Assembly (NCBI GenBank): GCA_947650365.1
Contig: CANTAL010000199.1
Coordinates: 310,001-374,000, forward strand
Length of the DNA: 64,000 nucleotides
Direction of reading: 5' to 3'
Origin: Chamaelirium japonicum
Taxonomy: Eukaryota > Streptophyta > Magnoliopsida > Liliales > Melanthiaceae
In this document: positions 17,911-42,300 of the stretch, piece by piece
Layout of the letters: each line of letters starts with the position of its first letter
How positions within the stretch are numbered: the stretch's first letter is position 1
Notes under the pieces: model-generated
Database searches by the model: none
What the model was told of the DNA's origin: nothing
Seen by the model: the letters and a program-made list of their open reading frames with translations, nothing else
Made by a program: the position numbers and the translations under genes

Positions 17911-18820
17911 GATCATTTAAGTGTTTAGGTTGCGGCCTCAGACTTTGTATTTGGTTGAATACAAAGGTGCACCTTTGAACATTAGTTGATCGTGGGGAGA
18001 TCCTGTGTGATCCATTCTAATTCATTCAAAGGTGCACCTTTGTATTCAACCAAATACAAAGTCTGAGGCCGCAACCTAAACATCTGAATGATCGTGCGAA
18101 TGAATTACGAATGATTTAGAATAGATTGTGTGAATGAATTAGAATGGATCGTGCGAATGAATTAGAATGGATCGTACGAATGAATTAGAATGGATCGTAT
18201 GATTGAATTAGAATGGATCGTGCGAATGATTAGAATGGATTGTACGAATGAATTAGAACGGATACATTCGTGTGAATGAATTAGAATGGATCGTACGAAT
18301 GAGTTAGAATGGATCGTACGAATGAAATAGAATGGATCGTACGAATGAATTAGAATGGATCGTGCGAATGAATTAGATTGGATCGTGCGAATGAATTAGA
18401 ATGGATCATATGAATGAGTAAGAATAGATCGTACGAATGAAATAGAACGGATCGTATGATTGAATTAGAATGGATCGCATGAATGAATTCGAATGGATCG
18501 TACGAATGAATTAGAATGGATACATTCGTGCGAATGAATTAGAATGGATCATACGAAGGAATTAGGGTGGATCAAACGAATGAATTAGAATGGATACATT
18601 CGTGCGAAAGAATTAGAATGGATTGTTTGAATGAATTAGAATGGATCGTAAGAATGAATTAGAATGGATTGTACGAATGAATTAGAATGTATCGTATTAA
18701 GGAATTAGAATGGATTATACGAATGAAATAGAATAGATCGTACGAAGGAATTAGAATGGATCGTACGAAGGAATTAGAATGGATCATACGAATGAATTAG
18801 AATGGATATATTCGTCCAAA
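17190..18820. repeat. Large imperfect palindrome 1 centred at 18002
   Basis: The left side (TTC form) and right side (GAA form) mirror each other in monomer order, not only in monomer sequence. Matched landmarks outward from the centre: the short joint CGTAATTC, the ATCTATTC monomer, a 28-bp monomer, the CTTACTC and CTATTTC monomers, a CCAATC monomer, CGAATTCATTCATGCG, the TCCACCC monomer (17455 left, mirror ending 18571 right), and the CCTTCGTAC series. Arm lengths to the TCCACCC landmark are 547 and 569 bp, one monomer apart. The centre is the 183-bp fold-back. Confidence 0.85.
17911..18093. repeat. 183-bp fold-back unit, copy 1
   Basis: Arms of 69 nt (17911-17979 and 18025-18093) are near-perfect inverted repeats around a 45-nt loop (17980-18024). 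Each arm itself folds: TTTGTATT/AATACAAA is a stem with a 6-nt loop, and CAAAGGTGCACCTTTG is a 16-bp perfect palindrome. The loop holds about 29 nt of unique sequence (TTGATCGTGGGGAGATCC) followed by most of one satellite monomer. There is no open frame. It has no recognisable transposon terminus, and because the flanking satellite is mirrored too, it looks like the centre of an inverted duplication rather than a simple MITE insertion. Confidence 0.9.
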
Positions 18821-21800: not shown

Positions 21801-24701
21801 AGAATGGATCGTATGAAAGAATTAGAATGGATCCTACGAATGAATTAGAATGGATCGTACGAATGAATTAGAATGGATCGTACGAATGAATTAGAATGGA
21901 TCATACGAAGGAATTAGAATGGATCGTACAAATGAATTAGAATGGATCGTATGAATGAATTAGAATGGATCGTGCGAATGAATTAGAATGGATCGTACGA
22001 ATGAAATAGAATGGATCGTAGAAAGAATTCGAATGGACCGTACGAATGAATTAGAATGGATACATTGGTGCGAATGAATTAGAATGGATCATACGAAGGA
22101 ATTAGGGTGGATCATACGAATGAATTAGAAAGGATCGTACGAATGAATTAGAATAGATCGTACGAATGTATTCGAAAGGATCGTAAGAATGAATTAGAAT
22201 GGATAGTGCGAATGAAATATAATAGATCGTACGAATGAATTAGAATGGATACATTCGTACATAAGAATTAGAATGGATTGTATGAATGAATTAGAATGGA
22301 TCGTACAAATGAATTAGAATGGATCGTGCGAATGAATTAGAATGGATCGTACGAATGAATTAGAATGGTTCGTATGAATGAATTAGAATGGATCGTGCGA
22401 ATGAATTAGAATGGATCGTACGAATGAATTAGAATGGATACATTCGTATGAACGAATTTGAATGGATCGTGCGAATGAATTAGAATGGATCGTAGGAATG
22501 AATTAGAATGGATCGTATGAATGAATTACAACGGATCCTATGAATGATCTTATGAATGAATTAGAATGGATTGCACAATGGATCGTATGAATGAATTAGA
22601 ATGGATCGTATGAATGAATTAGATTGGATCGTACGAATGAATTACAATGGATACATTCGTGTGAATTAAATAGAATGGATCATACGAAGGAATTAGGGTG
22701 GATCGTACGAATGAATTAGAATAGATTGTGCGAATGAATTAGAATGGATCGTACGAATGAATTAGAATGGATACATTCGTGCGAATGAATTAGAATTGAT
22801 CGTGCTAATAAATTAGAATGGATCATACAAATGAATTAGAATGGATCGTGCTAATGAATTAGAATGGATCGTACGAATGAATTAGAATAGATTATGCCAA
22901 TGAATTAGAATGGATCGTACGAATGAATTAGAATGGATCGTATGAATGAATTAGAATGGATCGTGCGAATGAATTAGAATGGATCATACAAATGAATTAG
23001 AATGGATAATACGAAGGAATTTCGGTGGATCGTACGAATGAATTAGAATGGATACATTCGTGCGAAAAAATTAGAATGGATTGTATGAATGAATTAGATT
23101 GGATCGTATGAATGAATCAGAATGGATTGTGCGAATGAATTAGAATGGATCGTATGAATGAATTAGAATGGATCGTACGAATGAATTAGAATAGATTGTG
23201 CGAATGAATTAGAATGGATCGTACGAATGAATTAGAATAGATTATGCGAATGAATTAGAATGGATCGTACGAATGAATTAGAATGGATACATTCATATGA
23301 ATAAATTAGAATGGATCATATGAATGAATTAGAATGGTTCGTATGAATGAATTAGAATTGATCGTGTGAATGAATTAGAATGGATCATACGAATAAATTT
23401 GAATGGATACATTCGTGCGAATGAATTAGAAAGGATCATACGAATGAGTAAGAATGGATCGTATGAATGAAATAGAATGGATACATTCGTATGATCCATT
23501 CCATTTCATTCTTATGATCCATTCTTACTCATTCGTACGATCCATTCTAATTCATTCGCACGAATGTATCCATTCTAATTCATTCGTCGTACGATCTAAT
23601 CTAATTCATTAGCATGATCCATTCTAATTCATTCTTATAATCCTATTTCATTCGTACGATCCATTCTTACTCATTCGTACGATCCATTCTAATTCATTCA
23701 CACGAATGTATCCATTCTAATTCATTTGTAGGATCCATTCTAATTTATTCGCACGATCCATTTTAATTCATTCATACGATCCATTCCAATTCATTTATAC
23801 GATCCATTCTAATTCATTCGCACGATCCTTTCTAATTCATTCATACGATCCATTCTAATTCATTCATACAATCCATTCTAATTCTTTCACACAAATGTAT
23901 CCATTCTAACTTATTCGTACGATCCACCCCAATTTCTTCGTATGATCCATTCTAATTCATTCGTACGATCCATTCTAATTCATTCGCACGACCCATTCTA
24001 ATTCATTCATACGATCGATTCTAACTCATTCATACAATCCATTCTAATTCATTCGTACGATCCATTCTAATTCATTCACACGATCCATTCTAATTCATTC
24101 ATACGATCCATTCTAATTCATTCGTACGTTCCATTCTAATTTATTCGCACAATCTATTCTAATTCATTCGTACGATCCATTCTAATTCATTAGCATGATC
24201 CATTCTAATTCATTCGTACGATCCATTCTATTTCATTCGGACGACCCATTCTTACTCATTCGTACGATCTATTCTAATTCATTCGCACGAATGTATCCAT
24301 TCTAATTCATTCGTACGATCCATTCTAATTCATTCGCACGATCCATTCTAATTCATTCATATGATCCATTCTAATTCATTCGTACGATCAATTCTAATTC
24401 ATTCGTACAATCTATTCTAATTCATTCGTATGATCCATTCTAATTTATTAGCACAATCCATTCTAATTCATTCGTACGATCCATTCAATTTCATTCGTAC
24501 GATCCATTGTTACTCATTCGTACGATCCATTCTAATTCATTCGCTTGAATGTATCCATTCTAATTCATTCGTACGATCCATTCTAATTCATTCGCTCGAT
24601 CCATTCTAATTCATTCATACGATCCATTCTAATTCATTCGTATGATCCATTCTAATTCATTCGCACGATCTATTCTAATTCATTCATACAATCCATTCTT
24701 A
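18094..24701. repeat. 23-bp satellite, block E (mostly GAA form)
   Basis: GAA form to about 19625, TTC form to 20003, GAA form to about 20503, TTC form to 20628, a long GAA run to about 23484, then TTC form to the Helitron junction at 24701. The first ~0.7 kb is the right arm of palindrome 1. The rearranged patch TGAATTAATTCCTTCG at 19531 recurs at 33264, to the right of fold-back copy 2, so the flanks of copies 1 and 2 are homologous with about 1 kb lost in one. No gene is visible. Confidence 0.95.
24231..24488 (-). repeat. 258-bp higher-order unit, clearest example
   Basis: From the CTATTTC variant (TTT at 24231) to the next (TTT at 24489) there are exactly eleven monomers. Their order is CTTACTC type, CGTAC, 28-bp CGCACGAATGTATCC, CGTAC, CGCAC, CATAT/CATAC, CGTAC, ATCTATTC type, CGTAT/CGTAC, TTAGCAC, CGTAC ending in the ATTTC variant. 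A second unit follows with the same order. Confidence 0.85.
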
Positions 24702-24814
24702 TCTATATAACATGGCACGGCGCTTTCGTGCTGACTAGACAAAATGGCACCAAAGCTGACTAGACAAAACAATTGCTGACTAGGCTAATTTATTCAATTG
24801 TCTAAGAGAAGATA
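24702..24814. other. Helitron 5' terminal segment
   Basis: It starts TCTATATAAC and then carries three spaced copies of GCTGACTAG (about 24751, 24767 and 24775). The TCTAT start resembles 5' ends of plant Helitrons as a class. No open frame. Confidence 0.6.
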
Positions 24815-25170
24815 GCACATGCAGGCTGATAGACTAATAGACCAACCAACAAGCGTCCATTGCCAATCCGATTTAAAAACGGACGGCTGTGATTTCGCCA
24901 GTCCCAATCCCAACCGCCAACTAAAGGTCCTATTAATCCCCTTAATATGCCAGCTAAAGATCCCATTAATTCCCATAATATTAAACACGGGCGACTGTGA
25001 TTACTCGGTTCAGCACATGCAGGCTGATAGACCAACAGACCAACCAACAAGCGTCCATTGCCAATCCGATTTAAAAACGGACGGCTGTGATTTCGCCAGT
25101 CCCAATCCCAACCGCCAGCTAAAGGTCCCATTAATCCCCTTAATATTACAAAGGGGCGGCTGTGATTTCT
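24815..25170. repeat. 198-bp direct duplication in a promoter-like segment
   Basis: GCACATGCAGGCTGATAGAC starts at 24815 and, apart from the first base, again at 25013, a 198-bp step. The two copies then run nearly identically through a shared GATTTAAAAACGGACGG block and CCCAATCCCAACCGCC. The second copy leads into a C-rich segment. Antisense and sense frames of 123-149 aa across it exist only because the duplication keeps frame (198 = 66 x 3). It resembles the upstream region of a plant housekeeping-type gene with a pyrimidine-rich leader, but no gene can be named. Confidence 0.85.
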
Positions 25171-25960
25171 CACCCAGCCCTCCTTTCAGACCCCCGTCCC
25201 TCACGGCCCCCTCGAGCTGCCGCCCTTCACGCCCAGACCAGGTGATCGCCCCCCTCCCGCCGAGATGATCGCCCCCCTCCCCCTCGAGCCGCCGCCCTTG
25301 CCGGCCCCCCTCCCCCTCGAGCCGCCGCCCTTGCCGGCCCCCTCCCCCTCGAACCGCCCTTCACACCCTCTTTTCCGGCCTCCTTCACACTCTCTTTTCC
25401 GGCCGAGTTGATCGCCCCACCTTCACACCCTCTTTGCCGGCCTTAAATCCCGTCGATCATCTCTCATTCCCCTCTCACCTGCTTCCTTTCATTCCCCTCT
25501 CTCTCCCACCCCTCTCATCACCTAAATCAAAGCCGCCACCCTTGCGATCCCCCCAAATCCCGCGCCCCCTGCGATCCGCCCAAATCCCCGCTTGCTCCCT
25601 CCTTTCCGATCCCGCCTTCCCCCTTCCCTGTGATCCTCCTTCCCTGCGATCATGCCATCCCGCCTTCCCCTCTTCCCTGCGATACCCCAAAATCCCAAGT
25701 CCCTTTCACGCGCCTAAAATCCTGGCCCCGCCTCCCTTGCAATCCCCCGTGCCAAAAATCCTTGCCGCTTCTTCCCTACTTTCCAAATCGAGCAGACCAC
25801 GTTCAAATCCTCCCAAATACGGCAGGATCCTGGTATGGAAATTCTTCATTGTCCCCAACCCTTGCACGCACCCCAAACCCTTCAAGAGGCTGTGATTGTG
25901 CAGAAGGATGGATCGTGCAGAAGGCATCAACCCCTCCCCGCAACATCGTGCAGAATGCAT
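25171..25960 (+). other. Pyrimidine-rich leader-like segment with a 32-33-bp GC-rich minisatellite
   Basis: CCCTCGAGCCGCCGCCCTTG-type units recur with TCGAGCC/TCGAACC at 25284, 25317 and 25349 (steps of 33 and 32 bp). Beyond them is a long C/T-rich tract dotted with GCGATCC and CCAAATCC. Frames of 153 and 190 aa open here on the + strand, but they encode proline/serine-rich low-complexity sequence with no motif, as expected from a CT-rich 5'UTR. It may be a captured promoter/5'UTR. Confidence 0.5.
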
Positions 25961-25977
25961 CGCCCGCTCGCCCCCCG

Positions 25978-26236
25978 AGCCGCACGCAACCTCTAGGTCC
26001 GCTAGGTATGGACTCTCACTCTAGCACTCTCTCTATCTTAGTAAGAAAAAAAAATCAGCAAATTTTTTTTCTTTTCAATCAACATGAACCGCATGTTGAT
26101 TTCTACAAGGGTATCGGTAGACCTTGGATACCTTTGCAGAAATCAACAATTCCCGTTCCCATCTCTCTCTCTCTTGCTGATTTTTTTTTTTTTTGTTTTT
26201 AATCCATGGTTTTCTTCTTTTTTTTGCTCTCCCCCT
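25978..26236 (+). repeat. Triplicated intron-exon segment, copy A
   Basis: It begins AGCCGCACGCAA and contains a TAGGTATGG possible donor, TAGCACTCTCTC, and TTGATTTCTACAAGGG, ending in a T-rich tract before a decayed acceptor region. Copy B begins 259 bp later with the same order. The exon found in B and C is absent here, replaced by the start of B. Confidence 0.75.
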
Positions 26237-26540
26237 AGCCGCACGCAATCTCTAGGTCCGCCAGGTATGGACTCACACTCTAGCACTGTCTCTTTCTTAG
26301 TAAGAAAAAAATCAGCAAATTTTTTTTCTTTTCAATCAACATGGGTATTGGTAGACCTTGGATACCTTTGCAGAAATCAGCAATTCCCGTTCCCATCTCT
26401 CTCTCTCTTGCTGACTTTTTTTTTATCTGATTTTGTTTTTAATCCAGGGTTTTCTTCGTTTTTTTGCAGCGGTGATTCAACAACAAGGCGTGGATCAAAC
26501 CGAGGTGAGATCTTTCTCTCTTGGTTATTATTATTATTTT
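26237..26540 (+). repeat. Triplicated intron-exon segment, copy B
   Basis: It matches copy A from AGCCGCACGCAA onward. It lacks the ~19 nt containing TTGATTTCTACAAG, and continues through a T-rich tract, an AG acceptor, a 35-nt exon and a GTGAG donor into TTATTATTATTATTTTT. Confidence 0.75.
26470..26504 (+). CDS. 35-nt mini-exon bounded by TTTTTGCAG and GTGAGA (product unknown)
   Basis: A T-rich polypyrimidine tract and GCAG precede the segment CGGTGATTCAACAAC...CCGAG, and GTGAGATC follows: a canonical plant intron-exon-intron arrangement. In the frame that starts one base before the exon (xCG) it reads AVIQQQGVDQTE, matched to no family. Copy C at 27305 preserves the same borders with one CAA fewer. 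It could be an untranslated exon of the captured leader. Confidence 0.4.
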
Positions 26541-27157
26541 TCTTATTGGGCAAAAAAAAAATCGACATTGCAATTCCTGGGCAAAAAAAAATTGATTCAC
26601 CAGGGGTAAAAAAAATTGATTCACCATGTCTTTTTCACCATATGTCTTGGCTGACCAATCTGATTCACCATATGTTTTGTGAAATTGCAAATTTGTTGAT
26701 CTTTCGTTGTTTTTTTTTTCATCATATGTTTCGTGACAATTGCAAATCTGCTTTGGTTCATTTAAATAACCCACTGAGTGACCCACTGAAGTAGCATCAA
26801 GAGATGGGTGCTTGATAATTGCATGGCTTTCAAACATCTCATTCCTTTGCTTTTCTTTTTTCTTTATTTTTTTTAAAAGTATTTTGCTTTCATTTACATC
26901 AAATTAATCTTTGTACAGCTTTTGAAATCTTTTTCACCATATGTTTTGGAAGCTGTACTTTTGCACATCCATCCAATCTGATTCACCATATGTCTTGGCT
27001 CACCAACTTCTAACCAATTGTCACAAAAGCAGCTTGGCTCACCAACTTGGTTAGAAGTTGGCTCACCAAGCTTGGCTAACCTATATTGTACTTGGGCAAA
27101 AAGTTTTGGAATCTGATTCACCTTATGTTTTCGAAGCTGTACTTTTGCACATTCATC
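26541..27157. other. AT-rich intron-like sequence with dispersed CACCATATG repeats
   Basis: CTGATTCACCATATG or close variants recur at several points (about 26636, 26662, 26934, 26980 and 27115). A longer block, TTTTGGAAGCTGTACTTTTG, occurs at about 26943 and, slightly changed, near 27127. Poly-T and poly-A tracts fill the rest. The open frames here are short and low-complexity, and no coding signal is seen. Confidence 0.6.
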
Positions 27158-27385
27158 CAATGTTGATTTCTACAAGGGTATTGGTAGACCTTGGGTACCT
27201 TTGCGGAAATCAGCAATTCCCGTTCCCATCTCACTCTCTCTTGCTGATTTTTTTTTTATATCTGATTTTGTTTTTAATCCAAGGTTTTCTTCGTTTTTTG
27301 GTAGCGGTGATTCAACAAGGCGTCGATTAAACCGAGGTGAGATCTTTCTCTCTTGGTTATTATTATTATTTTTCTTCTTGGGCCA
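27158..27385 (+). repeat. Triplicated intron-exon segment, copy C
   Basis: It starts at TTGATTTCTACAAGGG (present in A, missing from B) and follows the B order through the T-rich tract, acceptor, exon, GTGAGATC donor and the TTATTATTATT tract. It therefore retains parts specific to A and to B, so it is not a simple copy of either. Confidence 0.75.
27305..27336 (+). CDS. 32-nt mini-exon, second copy
   Basis: Bounded by GGTAG and GTGAGATC, it aligns to the 35-nt exon at 26470 with one CAA triplet missing and two substitutions, one of which makes a TAA in the AVIQQQGVDQTE frame. Retention of both splice borders is notable; coding ability is not supported. Confidence 0.35.
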
Positions 27386-28257
27386 AAAAAATGGACATTA
27401 TTTTTCTCAGAAAATATTTTTTTTTGAAATTGTTTTATTAATACAAAAAAAATTTGGGTGAAGAAAATTTTGTGTTGATTGGATAAAGGCATTGACAAAA
27501 CTAATATGCAAAGGAGTGTGTGCGGGAATTTTGGTGTGTTTTATTCATAAAAGTTTTATTTCTTGCTGATTTTGCTATTTCCGAAAGCAAAACAACCTCA
27601 TGATTGTTGATTTTTTTTGCAGATTTTTGCAATTTCCGAAATCAAAAAACAATCAAAATCATCGTTGGTGGCAAGGTGATCATCCTGATTTCTTTTTGCA
27701 GATTTTTGCTGATTTTTTTGCTTATTTTTTTTGCTGATTTTCTTGCTGATTTTTCCTGATTTTTCCGTCATTCTAAAAATAAAACCCTTATGTTAACTGT
27801 TTCCTAAAAAAAACTCTAATCGTTGAATAGACGGATCAAAATCAACGCTGATTTTTCCTGATTATTCTATAAAAACTCTAATCGGTGTAAGAAGCTTTCC
27901 GGACTATTCTATAAAAACTTTACTTTTCTCCTTCACTGCTCTTTCTCTTATACTTTGATTTGCTTATATTTGCATTGGTGACAAAAAAAAATCTTTCTTA
28001 ATTTTTCTTTCAAAAACTTCAAGGTTCTTTTTTTTTTTTTTAATTCATCGTGTACAAGGACACTATCGTACGGCATCGGCCCCTCGCAGACTCGCCCTTG
28101 CCGCACACAGCCTCTCCATCCACCAAGATGATATCTGGATTCTTCATGGTTGCGGCATAGTGTACATCTATTAACAATGCTCACTCATCTTTTCTTCAAG
28201 ATATCTTGAGTTGCCAACCTATTTAGGACTGATTTCCATGTACAAACATCCATGCGA
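27386..28257. other. AT-rich intron-like sequence with TGCTGATTTT micro-repeats
   Basis: The motif TGCTGATTTT or GCAGATTTTTGC recurs many times at 27560-27760. A less AT-rich patch at about 28040-28190 (CGGCATCGGCCCCTCG, CACCAAGATGATATCTGG) may be captured exon sequence, but no frame on either strand gave a recognisable protein. Confidence 0.5.
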
Positions 28258-28274
28258 GGGGGGGGGGGGGGGGG
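28258..28274. repeat. 17-nt G homopolymer
   Basis: An unbroken run of 17 G followed by CGGGGAGCG. Such a run could form a quadruplex, and it is also a place where length may be wrong in the assembly. Confidence 0.9.
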
Positions 28275-28933
28275 CGGGGAGCGACCGGACTTTTCCAAAC
28301 AATGTCTCTCCATTCCACTTCTTCATCCCTATTCTTATTGCATTCCAGGCAGCAGAAAAGCTGAAAGTGGAGTTTTTTTTCTGAGGACCTATGAACTTTG
28401 CTTTCTGTGCCCTCAAGGTTTAGTCTAATTGCTTTGATTCGGTTGAACAACTCCTCCACCTGGTAAATCATAGGTCTCGGGAGTACCCATATGCTATTAT
28501 GCAGAAAATCAGCACACTGTTGTTCCTATCTACAGAAAGCTAATCTTCCTACCTCCTTTAAATATGTGCCACCGTATATTCCCCCAAGGTTTATTTTATG
28601 TTCTAAATTGCAGGCCTATAGAGCAGCTTTTAGTTCCCAAGTAGCAACTATAGTCCACTAATTCTGAGCCTATATGCATCTTTTCTTCCTTCTGCATAGA
28701 TTTGTTTGTACTGAAGATTCTGATGTTTTTCCTTATCAAATTTTAGGATTGTTATACCTTCTAAGTTCGAGACCCTTAAATTTTGGATTACTAATTGCAC
28801 CTTCATGTTACCAAAAGCGCGTTCACATTTAATTTTTGTTCTGGAACACTTTAATGTTAGCAATATTCTGTTGATGTTTGAGTTGCCTGCATTTATTTGC
28901 TCTTTAAGTTGCTGAACAATATTTTAAATGCAG
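28275..28933 (+). other. Intron-like sequence upstream of the zinc-knuckle exon
   Basis: AT-rich, ending in a typical acceptor (AATATTTTAAATGCAG) at 28933. Short possible exonic bits such as CCAGGCAGCAGAAAAGCTG near 28346 were examined, but no zinc-knuckle residues were found. The upstream knuckles of the same gene family are not visible. Confidence 0.55.
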
Positions 28934-29025
28934 GGGGTACAAAATTTGCGAACTGCTTTGTTTGTAACGAACGCGGGCATTTGAGCAAGAACTGCCCTAA
29001 AAATACAAAGGGAATCTATCCAAAG
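28934..29025 (+). CDS. Single exon of a ZCCHC9-like CCHC zinc-knuckle protein
   Basis: A 92-nt exon between ATGCAG and GTATTT. From the third base it reads GTKFA, then NCFVCNERGHLSKNCPKN, then TKGIYPK, with no stop. C-X2-C-X4-H-X4-C is complete (CFVC, H, C). The block GGTKFxxCFxCNxxGHLSKNCPxNxxGIYPK is characteristic of plant relatives of ZCCHC9, small nuclear proteins with several zinc knuckles that bind nucleic acid. In those proteins the next segment carries a GGCCKxCGGVTHLAxDC knuckle; it was searched for downstream and not found. The exon is thus an isolated captured piece, lying inside the Helitron in sense orientation with both splice borders kept. The exon call is firm by motif; function in place is unlikely. 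Confidence 0.75.
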
Positions 29026-29544
29026 GTATTTTGTATTGTCTTCATCCTTTTAGCATGCTATGTAACCATATAATGCGTTGTCATAGGTGGTTATTTTGGC
29101 AGATCATCCAAGTTCTGATATGTTAGTTGTATGTGGTTTTCATTGTTTTACTTTTACATACACGAACAAAAAATATCAACAAGGATACAAAATATCTTAA
29201 CATATACTACAGAATAGTGAGTATAATAATATTTTGCACAACCTGATTTTTATCAACCTGAATTTTTTTAGTGCACATTCTAGAAGACTAGAACATATTT
29301 TAGGAATCCAATGACAATAAATTGCATTTCGGGCTAAAATAGAAGTAATCAAAATTTTGTTAAAATCAGCATTTCGGGCAAAATCAGTTGTTTTGATTTA
29401 TTTTGCTGATTTTGCTTATTTCGAACAGCAAATTTGCAAAAAAAAAAGAGCAAATTTTATTGACTTTCTTTGTCTGCATGCAACTGAACCTGAAGGTTCT
29501 CCCGATTTCTGCGGCCCGATTGATATGCCTCAATCGGAAAAACC
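29026..29544. other. AT-rich non-coding sequence after the zinc-knuckle exon
   Basis: Intron-like AT-rich DNA with ATTTCGGGC(T/A)AAAA repeats near 29326 and 29371 and a short richer patch at 29461-29544. The 109-aa frame beginning at 29357 has no recognisable motif and crosses the duplicated hairpin segment, so it is not called. Confidence 0.5.
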
Positions 29545-29680
29545 TTCGGGCTTAAAAGCATTGCCACTAACATGCAAAGGGTCTCTCGGTGCACCGCCGA
29601 GAGACCCATCTCTTTTATACTTTTTTATAAGAAAACATTCGGGCTTAATAGCATTGCCACTGACATTCAAAACCAATCCG
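29545..29680. repeat. 93-bp local duplication containing an 11-bp-stem hairpin
   Basis: TTCGGGCTTAA(A/T)AGCATTG starts at 29545 and 29638, 93 bp apart. Between the copies, GGGTCTCTCGG (29579-29589) and CCGAGAGACCC (29597-29607) form a perfect 11-bp stem around a 7-nt loop. The second copy is followed by CCGAGGTGAGATTT, which resembles the exon end/donor seen in the mini-exon at 26470. No T run follows the stem, so it is not a bacterial-type terminator. Confidence 0.7.
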
Positions 29681-29719
29681 AGGTGAGATTTCAACAGTGC
29701 AAATCTTTTCTTTGAGTGT

Positions 29720-30054
29720 ATGTAGGATCTTGATCTTACAAAACCTGGGATTCATAAAAGTTTTAATACACCTGGGTTTGAAACAACTACTAAAGAAGTT
29801 TTGAAGAAAGCAAATAACGGTTTCGTAACATTCAATTCTCACGTTCAAATCATCGACCCTGGATGCTTGAGCCATTGAAGATGAGATGTTGGAGGAAACT
29901 GAACCCCTTTAGCCGTCAGTGGCCGGGTTCAACCTCCTGCAACTCTCACCTTCAAAACCCAACAATGGAGCAAGAACAGGTGTTGGAAGACATTTATGAA
30001 AGGAAGCATGCAGATTCTGTTTATGGAATTCACTATACAACAGATGTACGATAT
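29720..30054 (+). pseudogene. Coding-like remnant of unknown family
   Basis: Base composition becomes more balanced and two frames give protein-like stretches. One contains KPGIHKSFNTPGFETTTKEV and FVTFNSHVQIIDPG (about 29737-29864). The other, from an ATG near 29965, reads MEQEQVLEDIYERKHADSV followed by YGIHYTTD, before GTACG, which could be a splice donor. I do not recognise either. They may be exons of one gene captured by the Helitron, or chance. No function is proposed. Confidence 0.25.
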
Positions 30055-30328
30055 ATATTCTTGCTGTTTTCCCATGTTTTTTTTCTGTTTTTTTTTAGAA
30101 CTCCACCGTGTATATGGATGTGGCTCTGTTTTTTTATCGAGAATGAACATCTTTGTTTCATCAATAATTCTCTTTTCATGTAAACATCTATATTTGAGAA
30201 TGATTCTTTGAATGCCACATATTCTGTTTTAGACCTTGCTGTACTCTATTTTTTAATTCATTTTGTAATCAAATTTGGAATCCAATTTTGGTTCCATTCT
30301 AAAGAGAGAGTATTCCCTCAATTTTTGG
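30055..30328. other. AT-rich sequence, nothing recognised
   Basis: T-rich tracts (TTTTTTTTCTGTTTTTTTT near 30077) and intron-like composition, with no motif on either strand. The region just before 30329 (AGTATTCCCTCAATTTTTGGG) may be a decayed upstream part of the aldo-keto reductase remnant. Confidence 0.5.
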
Positions 30329-30529
30329 GTTTTAAATCATGCACTTCAATTACAAAGGAAGCTAAGGGAGTTCTATAAGGAGAATAGCATTCAAGTGACT
30401 ACTTATAGCCCCCTATGAGGTTAGGGTGGCCCAAGTGGCCAAAACCTGGTAATGGAGAATGAGGTGCTCAAAGAGATAGCCAAGGCTAGAGGAAAGACTA
30501 ACTCAATTGTGGTCTCATTTGTTTTTTGT
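30329..30529 (+). pseudogene. Plant aldo-keto reductase fragment, decayed
   Basis: One frame from 30329 gives KLREFYKENSIQVTTYSPL, then TGA (30416-30418), GGT and TAG (30422-30424), then in the same frame GGPSGQ and NLVMENEVLKEIAKARGKT, then VVSFVF. This follows the order of plant NADPH-dependent aldo-keto reductases of the chalcone-reductase-like group: QQ(K/R)KLREFC, GIxVTAYSPLG, WGxNxVMExEVLKEIAxARGKT, QVxLRW. It corresponds to a stretch past the middle of a ~310-residue enzyme. The catalytic Asp/Tyr/Lys/His region upstream and the IPKS cofactor-binding motif downstream are absent, and two in-frame stops interrupt it. Homology then fades into T-rich DNA. It is a captured or relic fragment, not a working reductase. 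Confidence 0.7.
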
Positions 30530-30920
30530 TTTCCTTTAATTGTACTCAATGGGCCATTACCAAGTGCAGCAATGACTTTTAATGGTGGACATGACATCAC
30601 ACAATTGGACCATGACCAAGTGCAGCAAGGATTTTGAGCGAGTGGAACTTTTAATGGTGATGACCGAGCAACACAGTCACCGTTTCGAGTGAGAGGAACG
30701 AGATCACCACTTGCGATCGAAGCCGTAATCTTTGAAGATCTTCCCGATCGAGATCTCATCTCTTCACCGGCTAGCTCCCGCACCACTCGGTGATCTCCCT
30801 CTAGCTGGAAAAGAACTGAAGCGTCATCGTCTCCATCCCCCCTCAGCAATTCATTGCCGCTATTTGAGGGATGATCAGAGTTTGCTAGCAAGGTGCACAA
30901 GTCAGATATTTTAGATACAA
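30530..30920. other. Short direct repeats and mixed-composition sequence
   Basis: ACCAAGTGCAGCAA followed by CTTTTAATGGTG occurs at about 30558 and again, spread apart, at 30613-30660. The rest (30660-30910) is GC-balanced with GATCTTCCCGATCGAGATC palindromic bits and could be captured exon sequence. The minus-strand frame 30421-30900 runs antisense across the reductase fragment and has no motif of its own, so it is not called. Confidence 0.45.
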
Positions 30921-31492
30921 ATACTAATGATTGTTCAATGTATGTTGATTTACATGTATGATAGATGTGTAGACCTCAATGTTTTCTTAACCAGTTAATA
31001 ATTGAAGTTCAGTTATACGTAAAGTTTATGTATGTTTAGTTTTTTGTTTGCTGGTGTTTTTTTCCCTTCAAATACAGTGAAATGCTTTATGAACTTCTTA
31101 TATTTATGAAGTTATAATGCATCATCATTCCTGGATATTAAGTTAATGAGTTTTGAGGGGTTCTGAACTCAAGGTGGCTGTACATCTCTCAAGTTCTCAA
31201 CGCATGTTTGCTTAGGCAATCAAGCAGTCATCGCCTAGGTCTGTCAGACTCCTTGAGTACGCTGGTTTATTATTATGTTACTTAATGGATAGTAGGACTT
31301 ATCTATGGACTCTATACACTAGTTGAGTAAGAAGCAGTTTTCATGAAATTTTTTTTCTGGTTGTGTTGCCAGAATCATCATAATCACTTGGTTTTCTTCT
31401 TTTGTATTTTTGGCAGTATGGTCGTATACTGGGACAGTGACATAAATTAGTGCATAATATGCAAACCAGACCCGACACAATCAGCGGTTGTA
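30921..31492. other. AT-rich sequence without recognisable features
   Basis: Non-coding-looking AT-rich DNA on both strands. No repeats of note were found until the ACCCGACAC motif near 31470. Confidence 0.5.
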
Positions 31493-31548
31493 CAGGTGTG
31501 TTGCCATCGAAGGCGGCCTGCTGCAGTGTAGACAGACACGGGCATGCA
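31493..31548 (+). repeat. Internal copy of the Helitron 3' terminal 56 nt, lacking CTAG
   Basis: 31493-31548 aligns base for base in length with 31887-31942, the 56 nt before the terminal CTAG. Both contain TGTGTTGCC, GAAGGCGGCC(T/C)GCTGCAGTG and CACGGGCATGCA. The internal copy is followed by ATTTTGG instead of CTAG. It keeps a weaker hairpin, GTGT/ACAC. Confidence 0.8.
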
Positions 31549-31734
31549 ATTTTGGACCCGAAACGGCTAACCCGACACACGACCCGACTCGAAATTAGGT
31601 CCGGGTCAAACGAAATCGGGTCGTAAACGGATCGACACGACGGACCTGTTTAGTAAATGGGTCGGGTCTGGTTTTTGTATCCGACCTATTTAATACCCTT
31701 TTAAAAACCAATGGGTTAGGCCAGTATTGCCGTC
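31549..31734. repeat. GGGTCG/ACCCG-rich segment of transposon-like character
   Basis: CCCGACAC, CGACCCGACTCG, GGTCCGGGTC, CGGGTCG and GGGTCGGGTC occur within about 130 bp, giving many short inverted matches between the ACCCG half (31556-31590) and the GGGTCG half (31600-31680). Such pattern-rich segments occur in several non-autonomous plant DNA elements; the family is not determined. Confidence 0.45.
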
Positions 31735-31810
31735 GAAAGTTTTTTGTTGCCGAAGATGGTCAGCTGCATTGTCGCCGAATACGACGGTGTGGGTGGTGAA
31801 GCCCAGGGTG

Positions 31811-31930
31811 TGTCCTGTCGTCGAAGGCGGTCCGCTTTTTTGCCGACAGCTGTGTTGCCGCCGAAGGCGGCCCGCTGCAGTGCCGACAGCTGTGTTGCCG
31901 CCGAAGGCGGCCCGCTGCAGTGCCGACAGG
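31811..31930. repeat. 40-bp minisatellite next to the Helitron 3' end
   Basis: TGCCGACAG(C/G) occurs at 31841, 31881 and 31921, exact 40-bp steps. Each step contains TGTTGCCGCCGAAGGCGGCC and GCTGCAG. A diverged copy precedes it (about 31811-31840), with a further degenerate one near 31735-31790. The GCCGCCGAAGGCGGC core is self-complementary. Confidence 0.85.
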
Positions 31931-31946
31931 CACGGGCATGCACTAG
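31920..31946 (+). other. Helitron 3' terminus: hairpin plus CTAG
   Basis: GTGCC (31920-31924), loop GACA, GGCAC (31929-31933), then 9 nt (GGGCATGCA), then CTAG (31943-31946), followed by T. Hairpin, spacing, CTRR-type end and the 3' T match the known Helitron 3' signature. Confidence 0.75.
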
Positions 31947-32614
31947 TTCATTCATACAATCCATTCTAATTGTTTTGCACGACTGTATCCATTCTGATTC
32001 ATTCGTACGATCCACCCTAATTCCTTCGTATGATCCATTCAAATTTATTCGCACGAATCTATCCATTCTAATTCAATCGTACGATCCATTCGAATTCATT
32101 CATATGATCCATTTTAATTCATTCATACGATCCATTCTAATTCATTCGTACGAATGTATCCATTCTAATTCATTCGTACGATCCATTCTAATTCATTCGC
32201 ACATTCTATTCTAATTCATTCGTACGATCCATTCTAATTCATTCGCACGATCCATTCTAATTCATTTGCACGATCCATTCTAACTCATTCGCACGAATGT
32301 ATCCATTCTAATTCATTCGTACGATCCATTCTAATTCATTCCCACGATCCAATCTAACTCATTCGAACGATCCATTGTAATTCATTCGTACGAACCATTC
32401 TATTTCATTCGTACGATCCATTCTTACTCATTCGTACAATCTATTCTAATTCATTCACACGAATGTATCCATTCTAATTCATTCGTATGATCCATTCTAA
32501 TTCATTCGCACGATCCTTTCTAATTCATTCGTACGATCTATTCTAATTCATTCGCACGATCCATTCTAATTCATTCGCACAATCTATTCTAATTCATTCG
32601 TAATTCATTCGCAT
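31947..32614 (-). repeat. 23-bp satellite, block F (TTC form), left arm of palindrome 2
   Basis: Starts with the T that completes the interrupted monomer. The TCCACCC monomer lies 64 nt downstream (32011), the same 64-nt distance as from the empty sites in copies 1 (17391 to 17455) and 3 (38647 to 38711). The arm to the fold-back is longer than in the other copies. Confidence 0.95.
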
Positions 32615-32797
32615 GATCATTCAGGTGTTTAGGTTGCAGTCTCAGACTTTGTATTTGGTTGAATACAAAGGTGCACCTTTGAAAGTTAGTTGATCGTGGG
32701 GAGACCCTGTGTGATCCATTCTAAGTCATTCAATGGTGCACCTTTGTATTCAACCAAACACAAAGTATGAGGCCGCAACCTAAACACCTGAATGATC
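32615..32797. repeat. 183-bp fold-back unit, copy 2
   Basis: Same length and plan as copy 1, and the loop has the same orientation (TTGATCGTGGGGAGACCC). The arms differ at a few bases (TTGCAGTCTC on the left, CAATGGTGCACC on the right). The right flank has a CATAC-class monomer (GTATGAATG on the + strand) at the position where copy 1 has one; the left flank lacks it. Confidence 0.9.
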
Positions 32798-35700
32798 GTG
32801 CGAATGAATTACGAATGAATTAGAATAGATTGTGCGAATGAATTAGAATGGATCATGCGAATGAATTAGAATAGATCGTACGATTGAATTAGAATGGATC
32901 GTATGAATGAATTAGAATGGATCGTGCGAATGAATTAGAATTTGATCATACGAATGAATTAGAATGGATGCATTCGTGCTAATGAATTAGAATGGATTGT
33001 ACGAATGAGTTAGAATGGATCGTACGAATGAATTAGAATGGATACATTCGTTCGAATGAATTAGAATGGATCGTGCAAATGAATTAGAATGGATCGTGCA
33101 AATGAATTAGAATGGATCGTACGAATGAATTAGAAAAGATTGTGCGAATGAATTAGAATGGATCGTATGAAAGAATTAGAATGGATACATTCGTGTGAAT
33201 GAAATAGAATGGATCGTACGAATGAATAGAATAGATCGTACGAATGAATTAGATTGGATCGTATGAATTAATTCCTTCGTATGAATTATAATGGATTGTA
33301 CGAATGAATTAGAATGGATTAGAATGGATCATGCTAATGAATTATAATGAAATAGAATTCATACATACGATCCATTCTAATTCCTTCGTACGATCCATTC
33401 AAATTCATTCCCATGAATGTATCCATTCTAATTCATACGTACGATCCATTCTAATTCATTCATACGATCCAATCTAATTCATTCATACGATCCATTCTAA
33501 TTCATTCGCACGAATGTATCGATTCTAATTCATTCTAATTCCTTCGTACGATCCATTCTAATTCATTCGCACGAATGTTTCCATTCTAATTCATTCGTAC
33601 GATCCATTCTTATTTTTTCGCACAATCTATTCTAATTCATTCGTACGATCCATTCTAATTCAATCGCACAATATATTCAAATTTATTCGTACGATCTATT
33701 CGAATTCATTCATATGATCCATTCTAATTCATTCGTATGATCCATTAGAATTCCTTCGTACGATCCATTCTAATTCATTCCCACGAATGTATCCATTATA
33801 ATTCCTTCGTACGATCCATTCTAATTCATTCGTGCGAATGAATTAGAATGGATCCTGCGAATGAATTAGAATGGATCGTACGAATGAATTAGAATGGATC
33901 GTGCTAATTCATTTATACGATCCATTCTAATTAAAATGTATGAATGAATCAGAATGGATCGTGCAATCTAATTTATTCATACTATCCATTCTAATTCATT
34001 CATACAATCCATTCTAATTCTTTCGCACGATCCATTCTAATTCATTTGTACGATCCATTCTAATTCATTCATATAATAAATTAGAATGGATCGTGCGAAT
34101 GAATTAGAATGGATCGTACGAATGAATTAGAATGGATCATATGAAGGAATTAGGGTGGATCGTAAGAATGAATTAGAATGGATCGTACGAATGAATTAGA
34201 TTGGATCATTCAATTAGAATGGATCGTGCGAATGAATTAGAATGGATCGTACGAATGAATTAGAATAGATTGTGGAATGATTTAGAATGGATCATAAGAA
34301 TGAATTAGAATGGATACATTCGTGCGAATGAATTTGATTTGATCGTATGAATGAATTAGAATGGATCGTATGAATGAATTCGAATGGATCGTACGAATGA
34401 ATTAGAATAGAAACATTCGTGAGAATGAATTAGAATGGATCATTCGAAGAAATTAGGGTGGATCATTCTAATTCATTCATACGATCCATTCTATTTCATT
34501 CGTACGATCCATTCTTACTCATTCGTACGATCCATTCTAATTCATTCGCACGATCCAATCTAATTCATTCGCACGATCCATTCTAATTCATTCGCACGAT
34601 CCATTCTAATTCATACGTACGATCCAATCTTTCATATGTATCTATTCAAATTCATTCGTACGATCCATTCTAATTCATTCGCACGATCCATTCTAATATA
34701 TTTATACGATCCATTCTAATTCATTCGTACGATCCATTCTAATTCATTCGCACGATCCATTCTAATTCATTCATACGATCCATTCTAATTCATTCGCACT
34801 ATCTATTCTAATTCATTCGTACGATCCATTCTAATTCATTAGCACGATCCATTCTAATTCATTCGTACGATCCATTCTATTTCATTCGTACGATCCATTC
34901 TAATTCATTCGTATGATCCATTCTAATTCATTCGTACGATCCATTCGAATGGATCGCACGAATGTATCCATTCTAATTCATTCGTACGATCCATTCTAAT
35001 TCATTAGCACTATCCATTCTAATTCATTCGTACGATCTATTCTATTTCATTCGTACGATCCATTCTTACTCATTCGTACGATCCATTCTAATTCATTCGC
35101 ATGAATTCCTTCGTACGATCCATTCTAATTAATTAGCACGATCCATTCTAATTCATTCGTATGATCCATTCTATTTCATTCGTACGATCCATTCTAATTC
35201 ATTCGCACAATCTATTCTAATTCATTCGTACGATCCATTCTAATTCATTAGCATGATCCATTCTAATTCATTCGCACAATCTGTTCTAATTCATTCATAC
35301 AATCCATTCTAATTCTTTCGCACGAATATATTCATTCTAATTCATTCGTACGATCCATTCTTACTCATTCGTACGATCCATTCTAATTCATTCGCATGAA
35401 TGTATCCATTCTAATACATTCGTACGATCCATTCTAATTCGTTCGCACTATCCATTCTAATTCATTCGTACGATCCGTTCTAATTCATTCGTACGATCCA
35501 TTCTAATTCATTCGCACGATCAATTCTAATTCATTCATACGATCCATTCTAATTTATTCATATGATCCATTCTAATTCATTCATACAATCCATTCTAATT
35601 CATTCGTACGAATGTTTCTATTCTAATTCATTCGTGCGATCCATTCTAATTCATTCGCATGATCCATTCTAATTCATTCATACGATCCATTCTAATTCAT

Positions 35701-38700
35701 TCGGACGATCCATTCTAATTCATTCGCACAATCTATTCTAATTCATTCGTACGATCCATTCTAATTCATTAGCACTATCCATTCTATTTCATTCGTACGA
35801 TCCATTCTTATTCTATTTCATTCATACGATCTATTCTTACTCATTCGTACGATCCATTCTAATTCATTAGCACGATCCATTCTAATTCATTCGCACAATC
35901 TATTCTAATTCATTCGTACGAACCATTCTAATTCATTCGCACGATCCATTCTAATTCATTCGCACGATCCATTCTAATTCATTCATACAATCCATTCTAA
36001 TTCTTTCGCACGAATGTATCCATTCTAATTCATTCGTACGATCCACCCTAATTCCTTCGTATGATCCCATTCGTACGATCCATTCTAATTCATTCGCACG
36101 ATCCATTCTAATTCATTCATACAATCCATTCTAATTCGTGCGAATGAATTAGAATAGATTGTTCGAAAGATGAATTAGAATGGATCGTGCGAATGAATTA
36201 GATTGGATCGTACGAATGAGTAAGAATGGATCGTACGAATGAATTAGAATGAATACATTCGTGCGAAAGAATTAGAATGGATTGTATGAATGAATTAGAG
36301 TAGATTGTGCGAATGAATTAGAATGGATCGTGCTAATGAATTAGAATGGATCGTACGAATGAATTAGAATAGATTGTGCGAATGAATTAGAATGGATCGT
36401 ACGAATGAATTAGAATTGATCGTACGAATGAATTAGAATAGATCGTGCGAATGAAATAGAATGGATCGTACGAATGAATTAGAATGGATACATTCATGCG
36501 AATGAATTAGAATGGATTGTATGAATGAGTAAGAATGGATCGTACGAATAAAATAGAATGGATCGTACGAATGAATTAGAATGGTTCGTGCGAATGAATT
36601 AGATTCGATCGTGCGAATGAATTATAATGGATGGTACGAATGAGTAAGAATGGATCGTACGATTGAAATAGAATGGATCGTATGAATGAATTAGAATGGA
36701 TCATACGAATGAAACAGAATGGATCGTATGAATGAATTAGAATGGATCATATGAATTAGAATGGATCGTATGAATGAATTAGAATGGATCGGGCTAATGA
36801 ATTAGAATAGATTGTATGAATGAATTAGAATGGATCGTATGAATGAATTAGAATGGATCGTGCAAATGAATTAGAATGGATCGTACGAATGAATTAGAAT
36901 GGATACATTCGTGCGAATGAATTATAATGGATCGTACGAATGAGTAAGAATGGATCGTACGAATGAAACAAAATGGATCGTGCGAATGAATTAGAATGGA
37001 TCGTGCGAATGAATTAGATTATATCACGATCCATTCTAATTTATTCGTACGATCCATTCTATTTCATTCGTACAATCCATTCTTACTCATTCATACAATC
37101 CATTCTAATTCATTCGCATGAATGTATCCATTCTAATTCATTCGTACGATCCATTCTAATTCATTCGCACGATCCATTCTAATTCATTCATATGATCCAT
37201 TCTAATTCATTTGTACGATCCATTCTAATTCATTCACACAATCTATTCTAATTCATTCCTACGATCTATTCTAATTCATTAGCACGATCCATTCTAATTC
37301 ATTCATACAATCCATTCTAATTCTTTTGCACGAATGTATCCATTCTAATTAGAATGGGTCGAACGAAAGAATTAGAATGGATCGTATGAATGAATTAGAA
37401 TGGATCGTGCGAATGAATTAGAATGGATCGTACGAATGAATTAGAATGGATACATTCGTGCGAAAGAATTAGAATGGATTGTTTGAATGAATTAGAATGG
37501 ATCGTACGAATGAATTAGAATGGATCATATGAATGAATTAGAATGGATCGTACGAATGAATTAGAATGGATCGTGCGAATGAATTAGAATGGATCATACG
37601 AATGAATTAGAATGGATCGTACGAATGAATTAGAATAGATTGTGCGAATTGATTAGAATGGATCGTACGATTGAATTAGAATGGATCGTGCGAATGAATT
37701 AGAATGGATCGTACGTACGATCCATTCTATTTCATTCGTACGATCCATTCTTACTCATTCGTACAATCCATTCTAATTCATTCGCACGATCCATTCTAAT
37801 TCATTCATACGATCTATTCTAATTCATTCGTACAATCCATTCTAATTCATTCGTACGATCCATTCTAATTCATTAGCACGATCAAGAATGGATCGTACGA
37901 ATGAAATAGAATGGATCGTATGAATGAATTAGAATGGATCGTGCGAATGAATTAGATTGGATCGTGCGAATGAATTAGAATGGATCGTACGAATGGATTA
38001 GAATAGATTGTGCGAATGAATTAGAATGGATCGTATGAATGAATTAGAATGGATACATTCGTGCGAATGAATTAGAATGGATCGTACGAATGAATTAGAA
38101 TAGATCGTACGAATGAATTAGAATGGATCGTACGAATGAGTTAGAATGGATCGTACGAATGAATATGAATTAGAATGGATCGTATGAATGAATTAGAATG
38201 GATCGTACGAATGAATTAGAATGGATCGCATGAATGAATTAGAATGGATTGTACGAATGTATCCATTCTAATTCATTCCTTTGTGCGATCCATTCTAATT
38301 CATTAGCACGATCCTTTCTAATTCATTCATACGATCTATTCTAATCATTCGCACGAATGGATCTTACTCATTCATACGATCCATTCTAACTCATTAGCAC
38401 GATCCATTCTAACTCATTTATATAATCCATTCTAATTCTTTTGCACGAATGTATCCATTCTAATTCATTCGTACAAACCATTCTAATTCCTTCGTACGAT
38501 CCATTCTAATTTCTTCGTACGATCCATTCTAATTTCTTCGTACGATCCATTCTATTTCATTCGTATGATCCATTCTAATTCCTTCGTACGATCCATCTAA
38601 TTCATTAGTAAGATCCATTCTAATTCATTCATACGATCCATTCTAATTCATTCATACAATCCATTCTAATTCTTTCGCACGAATGTATCCATTCTAATTC

Positions 38701-39188
38701 ATTCGTACGATCCACCCTAATTCCTTCGTATGATCCATTCTAATTCATTCGCACGAATGTATCCATTCTAATTGATTCGTATGATCCATTCGAATTCATT
38801 CATACGAGTCATTCTAATTCATTCATACGATCCATTCTATTTCATTCCTACGATCTATTCTTACTCATTCGTATGATCCATTCTAATTCATTCGCACGAT
38901 CCAATCTAATTCATTCGCACGATCCATTCTAATTCATTCGTACGATCCATTATATTTCATTCGTACGATCCATTCTTACTCATTCGTACGATCCATTCTA
39001 ATTCATTCACACGAATGTATCCATTCTAATTCATTCGTACAATCCATCTTAATCATTCGCACGATCCATTCTAATTCAATCATACGATCCATTCTAATTC
39101 ATTCGTACGATCCATTCTAATTCATTCGCACAATCCATTCTAATTCATTCGCACAATCTATTCTAAATCATTCGTAATTCATTCGCAT
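32798..39188. repeat. 23-bp satellite, block G (highly rearranged)
   Basis: GAA form to about 33360, then rapid alternation to 34465, including patches of one or two monomers near 33828-33965. TTC form 34465-36135, GAA form to about 37025, TTC form to 37345, GAA form to 37715 (switch at CGTACGTACG), TTC form to 37872, GAA form to 38257, TTC form to the fold-back at 39189. The last part is the left arm of palindrome 3. No genes are visible. Confidence 0.93.
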
Positions 39189-39371
39189 GATCATTCAGGT
39201 GTTTAGGTTGCGACCTCAGACTTTGTATTTGGTTGAATACAAAGGTGCACCTTTGAATGAATTAGAATGGATCACACAGGATCTCCCCACGATCAACTAA
39301 TGTTCAAAGGTGCACCTTTGTATTCAATCAAATACAAAGTCTGAGGCCACAACCTAGACACATTAATGATC
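39189..39371. repeat. 183-bp fold-back unit, copy 3, with inverted loop
   Basis: Exactly 183 bp like the others. The 45-nt loop is the exact reverse complement of the copy 1 loop (reads GGATCACACAGGATCTCC). The extra CATAC-class monomer is on the left side (CAATCATACG near 39080), whereas in copies 1 and 2 it is on the right. So loop and adjacent satellite are inverted together. Confidence 0.9.
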
Positions 39372-42300
39372 ATGCGAATGAATTACGAATGAATTAGAAT
39401 AGATTGTGCGAATGAATTAGAATGGGTCGTGCGAATGAATTAGAATGGATCGTACGAATGAATTAGAACGGATCGTGCAAATTAATTAGAATGGATCGTA
39501 CGAATGAATTAGAATGGATGCATTCGTGCGAATGAATAAGAATGGATCGTACGAATGAGTAAGAATGGATCGTACGAATAAAATAGAATGGATCGTACGA
39601 ATGAATTAGAATGGATCCTGCGAATGAATTAGATTGGATCGTGCGGATGAATTAGAATGGATCGTACGAATGAGTAAGAATGGATTGTACGAATGAAATA
39701 GAATGGATCGTATGAATGAATTAGAATGGATCTCATGAATGAATTCGAATGGATCGTACGAATGAATTAGAATTGATACATTTATGCGAATGAATTAGAA
39801 TGGATCATTCGAAGGAATTAGGGTGGATCGTACGAATCAATTAGAATGGATACGATCGTGCGAAAGAATTAGAATGGATTGTATGAATGAATTAGAATGG
39901 ATCGTATGAATGAATTAGAATGGATCGTACTAATGACTTAGAATGGATCGTACGAAGGAATTAGAATGGATCATACGAATGAAATAGAACGGATCGTATG
40001 AAGAAATTAGAATTGATCGTACGAAGGAATTAGAATGGATTGTACGAAGGAATTAGAATGGATCGTACGAATGAATTAGAATGGATACATTCGTGCTAAT
40101 GAATTAGAATGGATTGTACGAATGAATTTGAATAGATTGTGCGAATGAATTAGAATGGATCGTACGAATGATTTGGAATGGATACATTCGTGCGAATGAA
40201 TTAGAATGGAGCGTATGAATGAATTAGAATGGATCGTATGAATGAATTCGAATTGATCGTACGAACGAATTAGAATGGATACATTCGTGCGAATGAATTA
40301 GAATGGATCATACGAAGCAATTAGGGTGGATCGTACGAATAAATTAGAATAGATAAATTCGTGCGAAAGAATTAGAATGGATTGTATGAATGAATTAGAA
40401 TGGATCGTATGAATGATTTAGAATGGATCGTGCGAATAAATTAGAATGGATTGTTCTAATGAGTAAGAATGGATCGTACGAATGAAATAGAATGGATCGT
40501 ACGAATGAATTAGAATGGATCGTGCTAATGAATTAGAATGGATACATTCATGCGATTGAATTAGAATGGATCATACGAATGAATTAGAATGGATCGTACG
40601 AATGAATTAGGGTGGATCGTGCTAATGAATTAGAATGGATCATTCTAATTCATTCGTACGATCCATTCTAATTCATTCGTACGATCCATTCTAATTCATT
40701 CGCACGATCCATTCGAATTTATTTGTACGATCCATTCGAATCCATTCTAATTAGAATGGATCATATGAATGAATTAGAATAGATTGTGCGAATGAATTAG
40801 AATGGATCGTACGAATGAATAAGAATGGATACATTCGTGCGAATGAATTAGAATGGATTGTATGAATGAATTAGAATGGATCGTATGAATGAATTCGAAT
40901 GGATCATACGTATGAATTAGAATGGATCGTCAAATAAATTATAATGGATCGTATGAATGAATTAGAATGGATCGTGCGAATGAATGAGAATTGGATCGTA
41001 CGAATGAATTAGAATGGATCTTACGAATGGATCGTACGAATGAATTAGAATTGATACATTCCTGCAAAAGAATTAGAATGGATTGTATGAATGAATTAGA
41101 ATGGATCGTACAAATGAATTAGAGTGGATCATGTGAATGAATTAGAATGGATCATACGAATGAAATAGAATAAATTGTGCGAATGAATTAGAATGGATCG
41201 TACGAATGAATTAGAATGGATACATTCGTGCAAAAGAATTAGAATGGATTGTATGAATGAATTAGAATGGATCGTATGACGTATGAATTAATTAGAATGG
41301 ATCATACGAATGAATTAGAATGGATCGTATGAAGGAATTAGAATGGATACATTCGTGCGAAAGAATTAGAATGGATTGTATGAATGAATTAGAATGGATC
41401 GTATGAATGAATTAGAATGGATCGTGCGAATGAATTAGAATGGATCGTACGTATGAATTAGAATGGATCGTGCGAAAATGGATCGTACGAATAAATTAGA
41501 ATGGATCGTATGAATGAATTAGAATGGATCGTGCGAATGAATTAGAATGGATTGTATAAATGAATTAGAATGGATCGTATGAATGAGTAAGAATGGATCG
41601 TATGAATGAATTAGAATAGATTGTGTGAATGAGTTAGAATGGATCGTACGAATGAATTAGAATGGATATATTCGTGCGAAGGACTTAGAATGGATCGTAC
41701 GAATGGATCGTACGAAGGAATTACAATGGATACATTCGTGCGAATGAATTAGATTGGATCGTATGAATGAATTAGATTGGATCGTATGAATGAATTAGAA
41801 TGGATCGTACGTATGAATTAGAATAGATACATTCATGGGAATGAATTAGAATGGATCATACGAAGGAATTAGAATGGATCATACGAAGGAATTAGAATGG
41901 ATCGTACGTATCAATTGGAATGGATACATTCATGGGAATGAATTAGAATGGATCATACGAAGGAACTAGAATGGATCATACGAATGAATTAGAATGGATC
42001 GTACGAATGAATTAGAATGGATCATACGAATGAATTAGAATGGGTCGGACGAATGAATTAGAATGGATCGTATGAATGAATTAGCATGGATAGTATGAAT
42101 GATCGTATGAATGAATTTGAATGGATCGCACAGTGGATCGTATGAATGAATACAAATGGATCGTATGAATGAATTAGAATGAATTAGAATGGATCGTACG
42201 AATGAATTAGAATAGATATTTTTGTGTGAAGGAATTAGAATGGATCGTACGAATGGATTGTACGAAAGAATTAGAATGAATTAGAATGGATACATTCGTG

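Follow-up and report, generated by a model that had tools for sequence, protein, structure and literature searches.

Two oppositely oriented palindromes in the window (the whole 64-kb stretch of DNA analysed here, C211:310001-374000) very probably belong to a family of palindromic blocks within a 23/28-bp holocentromeric satellite, the later one (copy 3) being a whole block that lies opposite to the earlier one (copy 1) and not a copy whose loop was flipped within its own arms. Underlying this reading are the inverted collinearity of the two copies, the agreement in phase between loop and arms that most sampled copies show, the matching orientations found on other contigs, and 9 kb of collinearity between chromosomes. 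A preliminary description of the same DNA had proposed that recombination between the palindrome arms flips the middle. The anatomy that it reported is real; the flip is wrong for copies 1 and 3, for which inversion of the whole block fits better; and a flip mechanism probably does exist in the family, where it is rare.

The satellite occupies positions 1139-24699 and 31943-64000 of the window in runs of alternating strand, and its TRF consensus sequences are ATCCATTCTAATTCATTCGTACG and ATCCATTCTAATTCATTCGCACGAATGT. In Kuo et al. 2023 (PMC10264360), the holocentromeres of Chionographis japonica are described as CENH3-bound Chio1 (23 bp) and Chio2 (28 bp) in mixed orientation, and the frequent alternation of Chio orientation is restated in a passage of a later paper (PMC12722358). 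The window matches this picture in having a 23-bp monomer with a 28-bp variant (5 bp longer, with one substitution), a correspondence with the published description rather than with published letters, and in the mixed forward and reverse arrays of its strand maps. These sequence features strongly suggest that the window satellite is Chio1/Chio2 of Chionographis japonica. The published assembly of this plant is given as 12 scaffolds with an N50 of 81.11 Mb and 1,526,137,861 bases in 3786 primary contigs (PMC10264360); the genome searched here comprises 1,518,659,071 bases in 3253 records (1.52 Gb) and holds 6,816 overlapping exact matches of four units of the plant-type telomere repeat. As strand switching in the Chio array is already known, it is the core of the palindromes that constitutes the addition here, and no description of a core of this kind was found in the literature searched. 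No Rfam match was obtained within the 64-kb window. The non-satellite edges of two satellite blocks, at positions 1-1130 of the window (C211) and L012:1-800 (C8), are 77-84% alike, so the satellite edge itself may belong to a repeated unit.

The core is a palindrome of ~200 bp that occurs three times in the window, as copy 1 (17893-18112, with its loop on the minus strand relative to copy 3), copy 2 (32597-32816, minus strand, the same loop orientation as copy 1) and copy 3 (39171-39390, plus strand). The loops of copies 1 and 3, each delimited by the two GGTGCACC of its core, span 17966-18038 on the minus strand and 39244-39316 on the plus strand. For the region of copy 3 (39160-39400), the computed fold of single-stranded DNA has an energy of -96.8 kcal/mol, against a mean of -22.0 for shuffled sequences. 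Genome-wide, the loop pattern occurs at 298 sites (up to 3 mismatches allowed) and the core-arm pattern at 539, and the reversed control patterns for loop and core arm gave 0 matches. Satellite runs outward on both sides of the core in all 24 copies for which both neighbours were displayed.

One satellite monomer lies inside the core loop. A 41-bp piece of the loop, including the end of this monomer, matches at 90% a place without satellite, L052 (C2:31.9 Mb); 251 bp around that site match a dispersed non-satellite repeat found on C1 to C12 (40 of the 1,116 candidates being scored), with copies that are partly in tandem, ~186 bp apart. Because this repeat is more widely spread and more diverged, we infer that it donated the 41-bp piece to the core. 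To the eye, the left core arm resembles the right one copied in inverse orientation and joined at TTC, and it may have originated in this way. Five cores (L032, L053, L054, L056 and L060) lack the left core arm, as judged by eye, with satellite abutting the loop directly. Such one-armed cores may have arisen by deletion at short repeats, which would relax the palindrome; in L060 the left core arm may have been lost between two GATCA. Cores also occur in tandem, spaced 3,928 bp in L027, 3,862 bp in L030 and 1,405 bp in L026, which we record in passing as a higher-order satellite unit containing the core.

Much of what had been described for copies 1 and 3 stands. The loop of copy 3 is the reverse complement of that of copy 1 (65 of 65 bases match), and inspection by eye confirms that a CAATCATAC monomer, a short TAATCATTCG monomer and a CACAC-type 28-mer sit on the right arm of copy 1 and on the left arm of copy 3, and that a TAATTAATT(C/T)GCAC monomer occupies opposite arms of the two copies. 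The description went on to state that the swap stops inside the arms, a few hundred bp out, as it would if the arms of either copy had recombined and inverted the middle, with ends at that distance from the centre. The palindrome arms, at 92-97% identity, would be fit substrates for such an exchange, and one flip of this type seems to be present elsewhere in the family (L030, below). The extent of the inverted pairing, the distribution of ATTATATTTC and the arrangement on other contigs all speak against it, and we consider it very improbable for the window copies.

Specifically, the four arms of copies 1 and 3 (L1, R1, L3 and R3) were taken outward from the loop and then aligned. Up to 800 bp from the loop, 14 single-base sites and one indel (20 columns scored) in the four-arm alignment pair L1 with R3 and R1 with L3, and a single site, at outward position 279, pairs L1 directly with L3. 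In pairwise alignments, the left arm of copy 1 (16074-17973) is collinear in inverted orientation with the right arm of copy 3 (39309-41208) over ~1.9 kb, at 93-98% per 100 bp with 2 gap positions, and the right arm of copy 1 (18031-18830) with the left arm of copy 3 (38452-39251) over ~0.8 kb, at 91-98% per 100 bp with 6 gap positions. The copies diverge past these limits, the left arm of copy 3 being less similar past 0.8 kb to each arm compared with it pairwise. Because the arms are palindromic, the direct pairings near the loop also reach 92-97%, but a gap of 22-26 positions has to be opened for them within the second 100 bp. Inverted pairing thus continues to 1.9 kb and ~0.8 kb, well past the place where the swap was said to stop. 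The pattern expected of an inversion between palindrome arms, inverted pairing on the inside and direct pairing on the outside with a switch within the arms, is not what copies 1 and 3 display, and when private variants are aligned in both orientations, a comparison set beforehand, inversion of the whole block is the better fit, contrary to the flip. Past ~1.9 kb the four-arm alignment gives a mixed picture: a single 100-bp bin, at 2.5 kb, holds 18 columns that favour direct pairing. Since the inverted collinearity ends at 1.9 kb on one side and 0.8 kb on the other, the size of the inverted block has a lower bound only, and further rearrangements came later.

The single directly paired site, 279, is ATTATATTTC. 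It does lie on the left in both copies, as had been described, but it does not serve as the unswapped marker of a breakpoint that it was taken for, since relatives carry it on either side: within 620 bp of the loop, among the 64 sampled copies, it is found on three loop-left arms (copy 3, L018 and L047) and two loop-right arms (copy 1 and L015). Its presence on both sides of the loop points to a recurrent base, or to one converted between arms over a short distance, rather than to a breakpoint. A loop flip for copies 1 and 3 was ruled out by the four-arm and pairwise alignments together with the recurrence of ATTATATTTC.

The orientation of copy 3 is moreover shared by homologous blocks on three other contigs. 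Genome searches were run with copies 1, 2 and 3, with 40 candidates scored per search, and, self-matches aside, the best match of each copy lies on C217 (97, 96 and 98%, respectively), in mirror order and all on the opposite strand. On C148, loops at 94.2, 101.7 and 109.1 kb lie on strands +, + and -, with the same relative orientations as on C211; the first two match copies 1 and 2, and the third (L047), absent from the 40 places scored for copy 3, has copy 3 as its nearest partner. On C94, matching places at 118.2, 125.3 and 132.0 kb again have the orientations of C211. As the triple is common to C217, C148 and C94, the orientation of copy 3 was inherited with its block. These contigs may be haplotypes or paralogues of C211, and the orientation is stable either way.

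The first two cores are 14.7 kb apart on C211, as against 7.1-7.5 kb on C217, C148 and C94. Positions 24700-31942 of the window form a 7.2-kb non-satellite stretch, equal in length to the extra core spacing of C211 relative to C217 and C148; this stretch is probably an insertion in C211, and 9 of its 17 listed ORFs, when scanned, returned no Pfam match above the cut-off and one below it.

The recurrence of the triple also bears on the quality of the assembly. C211 is an unplaced contig of 522 kb, and the published assembly exceeds the measured 1C size, as reported in PMC10264360, so that one might suspect the inverted arrangement of being an artefact of assembling a satellite region. The chance of this is minute: copies 1 and 3 differ by ~4-5%, and are therefore not one sequence placed twice, and the triple is seen again on three contigs besides C211.

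A reversed loop between two palindromes is by itself no evidence of a flip, and the phase of loop and arms has to be tested. Our sample of 64 loop copies is not random, being drawn from the best or first-listed places; in 61 copies the arms beyond the core were compared by alignment scores with the arms of all other copies, both in phase and crosswise. The 61 exclude L023, L026_9797 and L049 because of their short arms, and L053, L054, L056 and L060 because the pattern did not find their loops; L030, L031 and L032, added after the first arm extraction, are part of the tree, marker and 61-copy phase analyses. Loop and arms are in phase in 55 of the 61 copies (54 of them by more than 0.1, and L033 by 0.01 only) and crosswise in 5, with 1 tie, the non-satellite place L052. 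An earlier count by differences to the nearest partner had placed 38 of 41 copies in phase and three crosswise (L020, L026_5197 and L033), and once alignment outside the core was scored these three turned in phase, by 0.13, 0.23 and 0.01; a tally of differences per bin against all partners was ambiguous. In a tree of 88 arms there are 8 changes of side, against a mean of 29.6 after shuffling (0 of 500 shuffles as low), a result to which near-copies contribute.

No diagnostic columns were found across all arms at once, and markers were therefore sought within one group. In the group of the window copies, 11 of 12 left arms are mostly L-type and 12 of 12 right arms mostly R-type, an agreement that is partly built in, as the markers were defined from the same 12 copies. 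In L047, the left arm shows the R state at marker 94 and the indel, and the L state at the ten remaining markers. Comparison across the two main subfamilies yields no phase signal (203 of 338 pairs), so flips older than the subfamily split would be invisible.

The five crosswise rows consist of the two cores of L030, the two of L031 and their nearest relative, L032, with margins of 0.05 to 0.12, and they amount to one comparison, of L030 and its duplicate L031 with L032. The cores of L030 are 3,862 bp apart on C5, and L031 is an inverted duplicate 6 Mb away (99.5% over 5,701 bp). The surroundings, C5:79.83-80.56 Mb and 85.14-85.87 Mb, hold four mirrored loop pairs, being either an uncollapsed haplotype or a large segment duplicated in inverse orientation. 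The one probable flip among the 61 copies is that of L030, whose core edges are trimmed, and to this extent the class of mechanism proposed for the window seems to be present in the family. Both arms of both cores match L032 crosswise: the first core has 35 and 34 differences crosswise against 58 and 58 in phase, and the second 35 and 27 against 71 and 50. An exact strand-switch junction lies to the right of the loop in all four L030/L031 copies and to its left in L032, and is absent from the other 59 of the 64 copies over the arm lengths covered (~0.6 to 2.6 kb); six other copies have looser versions of the junction ~1.8-2.0 kb out, on either side. At five marker columns L030 has the reversed state and L032 the normal one.

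Conversely, L030 would not be flipped at all if its arms, or those of L032, had been swapped or overwritten by conversion, or if the arm markers were recurrent. The small margins would suit this alternative, as would an indel of ~22 bp that, beside the group of the window copies, contradicts a flip in both L030 and L032. Moreover, the L030 cores are closer in phase to L033 and L040 (124 and 147 differences against 145 and 150 crosswise for the first core, 111 and 153 against 139 and 164 for the second). Set against the crosswise matches of both arms to L032, the opposite sides of the junction and the reversed columns, we regard the absence of a flip as unlikely, although it retains an appreciable chance. 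Relative to L032, then, the spacer of the probably flipped L030 is reversed against both flanking arms, by small margins and with the comparison to L033 and L040 pointing the opposite way. Its inverted repeats are not otherwise intact, the core arms being trimmed on both sides: 25 bp are gone at one edge and ~40 at the other, the latter, judged by eye, accompanied by a short insert resembling satellite. Reversal is confined to the core with its trimmed edges and does not take in several hundred bp of arm. A single break-and-rejoin or template-switch event would account for both flip and trimming; a clean arm-to-arm exchange would leave the core arms untrimmed.

Among the 210 pairs of 21 long-arm copies, 8 keep at least 91% identity to 4.5 kb on both sides. 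One of these pairs, L009 (C7) and L014 (C1), is 96-99% identical per 500-bp step to 4.5 kb on both sides (9 kb) and is the only one of the eight to join two chromosome-sized scaffolds, each of the other seven including at least one unplaced contig; copy 1 and L015 (C148) are 97-99% identical per 500-bp step. The strand-switch pattern is carried along in the collinear blocks. Core positions also recur at near-constant offsets, at 29.6 and 30.7 Mb on C7 and at 61.88 and 62.35 Mb on C10 (where an offset of 467,320 bp is seen twice), a pattern suggestive of uncollapsed haplotypes or segmental duplications.

In foldback elements, a loop is flanked by long inverted arms made up of short tandem repeats. 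Their likeness to the core blocks, which have long inverted tandem-repeat arms around a unique loop and 298 loop sites on many scaffolds, raises the question of whether the block is a mobile element of this type, inserted either way. Against this, the best 8 of the 210 pairs stay collinear past 4.5 kb on both sides and show no common end within that distance, and the core has no coding capacity; we hold this origin to be quite improbable.

The collinearity favours block copying, without discriminating among gene conversion, break-induced replication and circles. In the reading that we prefer, each palindrome carries the ~200-bp core, its two arms diverged into loop-left and loop-right types, and the family then spread as blocks of several kb in either orientation, putatively by gene conversion, break-induced replication or reinsertion of circles. 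More broadly, there is an even chance that the alternating orientation of the satellite is largely inherited, with blocks of at least 9 kb copied between chromosomes together with their strand switches, in either orientation, and with the core marking each such event together with its orientation. An oriented marker at 298 sites makes countable the question of how Chio arrays spread within and among holocentric chromosomes, for which block copying is at present a better fit to the data than local flipping.

Comparison with known systems sets off what is particular to these blocks. The palindromes of ape sex chromosomes, as defined in the part of PMC11168930 consulted, exceed 8 kb and have arms at least 98% identical, and inversions are abundant on the palindromic Y. 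Like the core blocks, they have inverted arms with a spacer; unlike them, the arms here are satellite and differ by several percent. Inversion of a spacer between inverted repeats through template switching is known in yeast, according to sections of PMC8604942, and resembles what is proposed for L030 in that the spacer is reversed and its surroundings kept. The yeast cases are substitutions of 2-5 bp in genes, with short arms, whereas L030 involves a loop of tens of bases in a satellite palindrome with trimmed edges. As for the Chio1/Chio2 system itself, the sections consulted of PMC10264360 give no palindromic core with non-satellite sequence, and their statement that Chio repeats lack similarity to annotated transposable elements concerns Chio and not the core. 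For the spread of Chio arrays, they discuss interlocus gene conversion, inversions and the reinsertion of circular DNA. With the window, this system shares the 23-bp unit, the 28-bp variant, the mixed arrays and higher-order repeats, in the form of a cluster (CL73) that contains Chio1/2 (PMC10264360).
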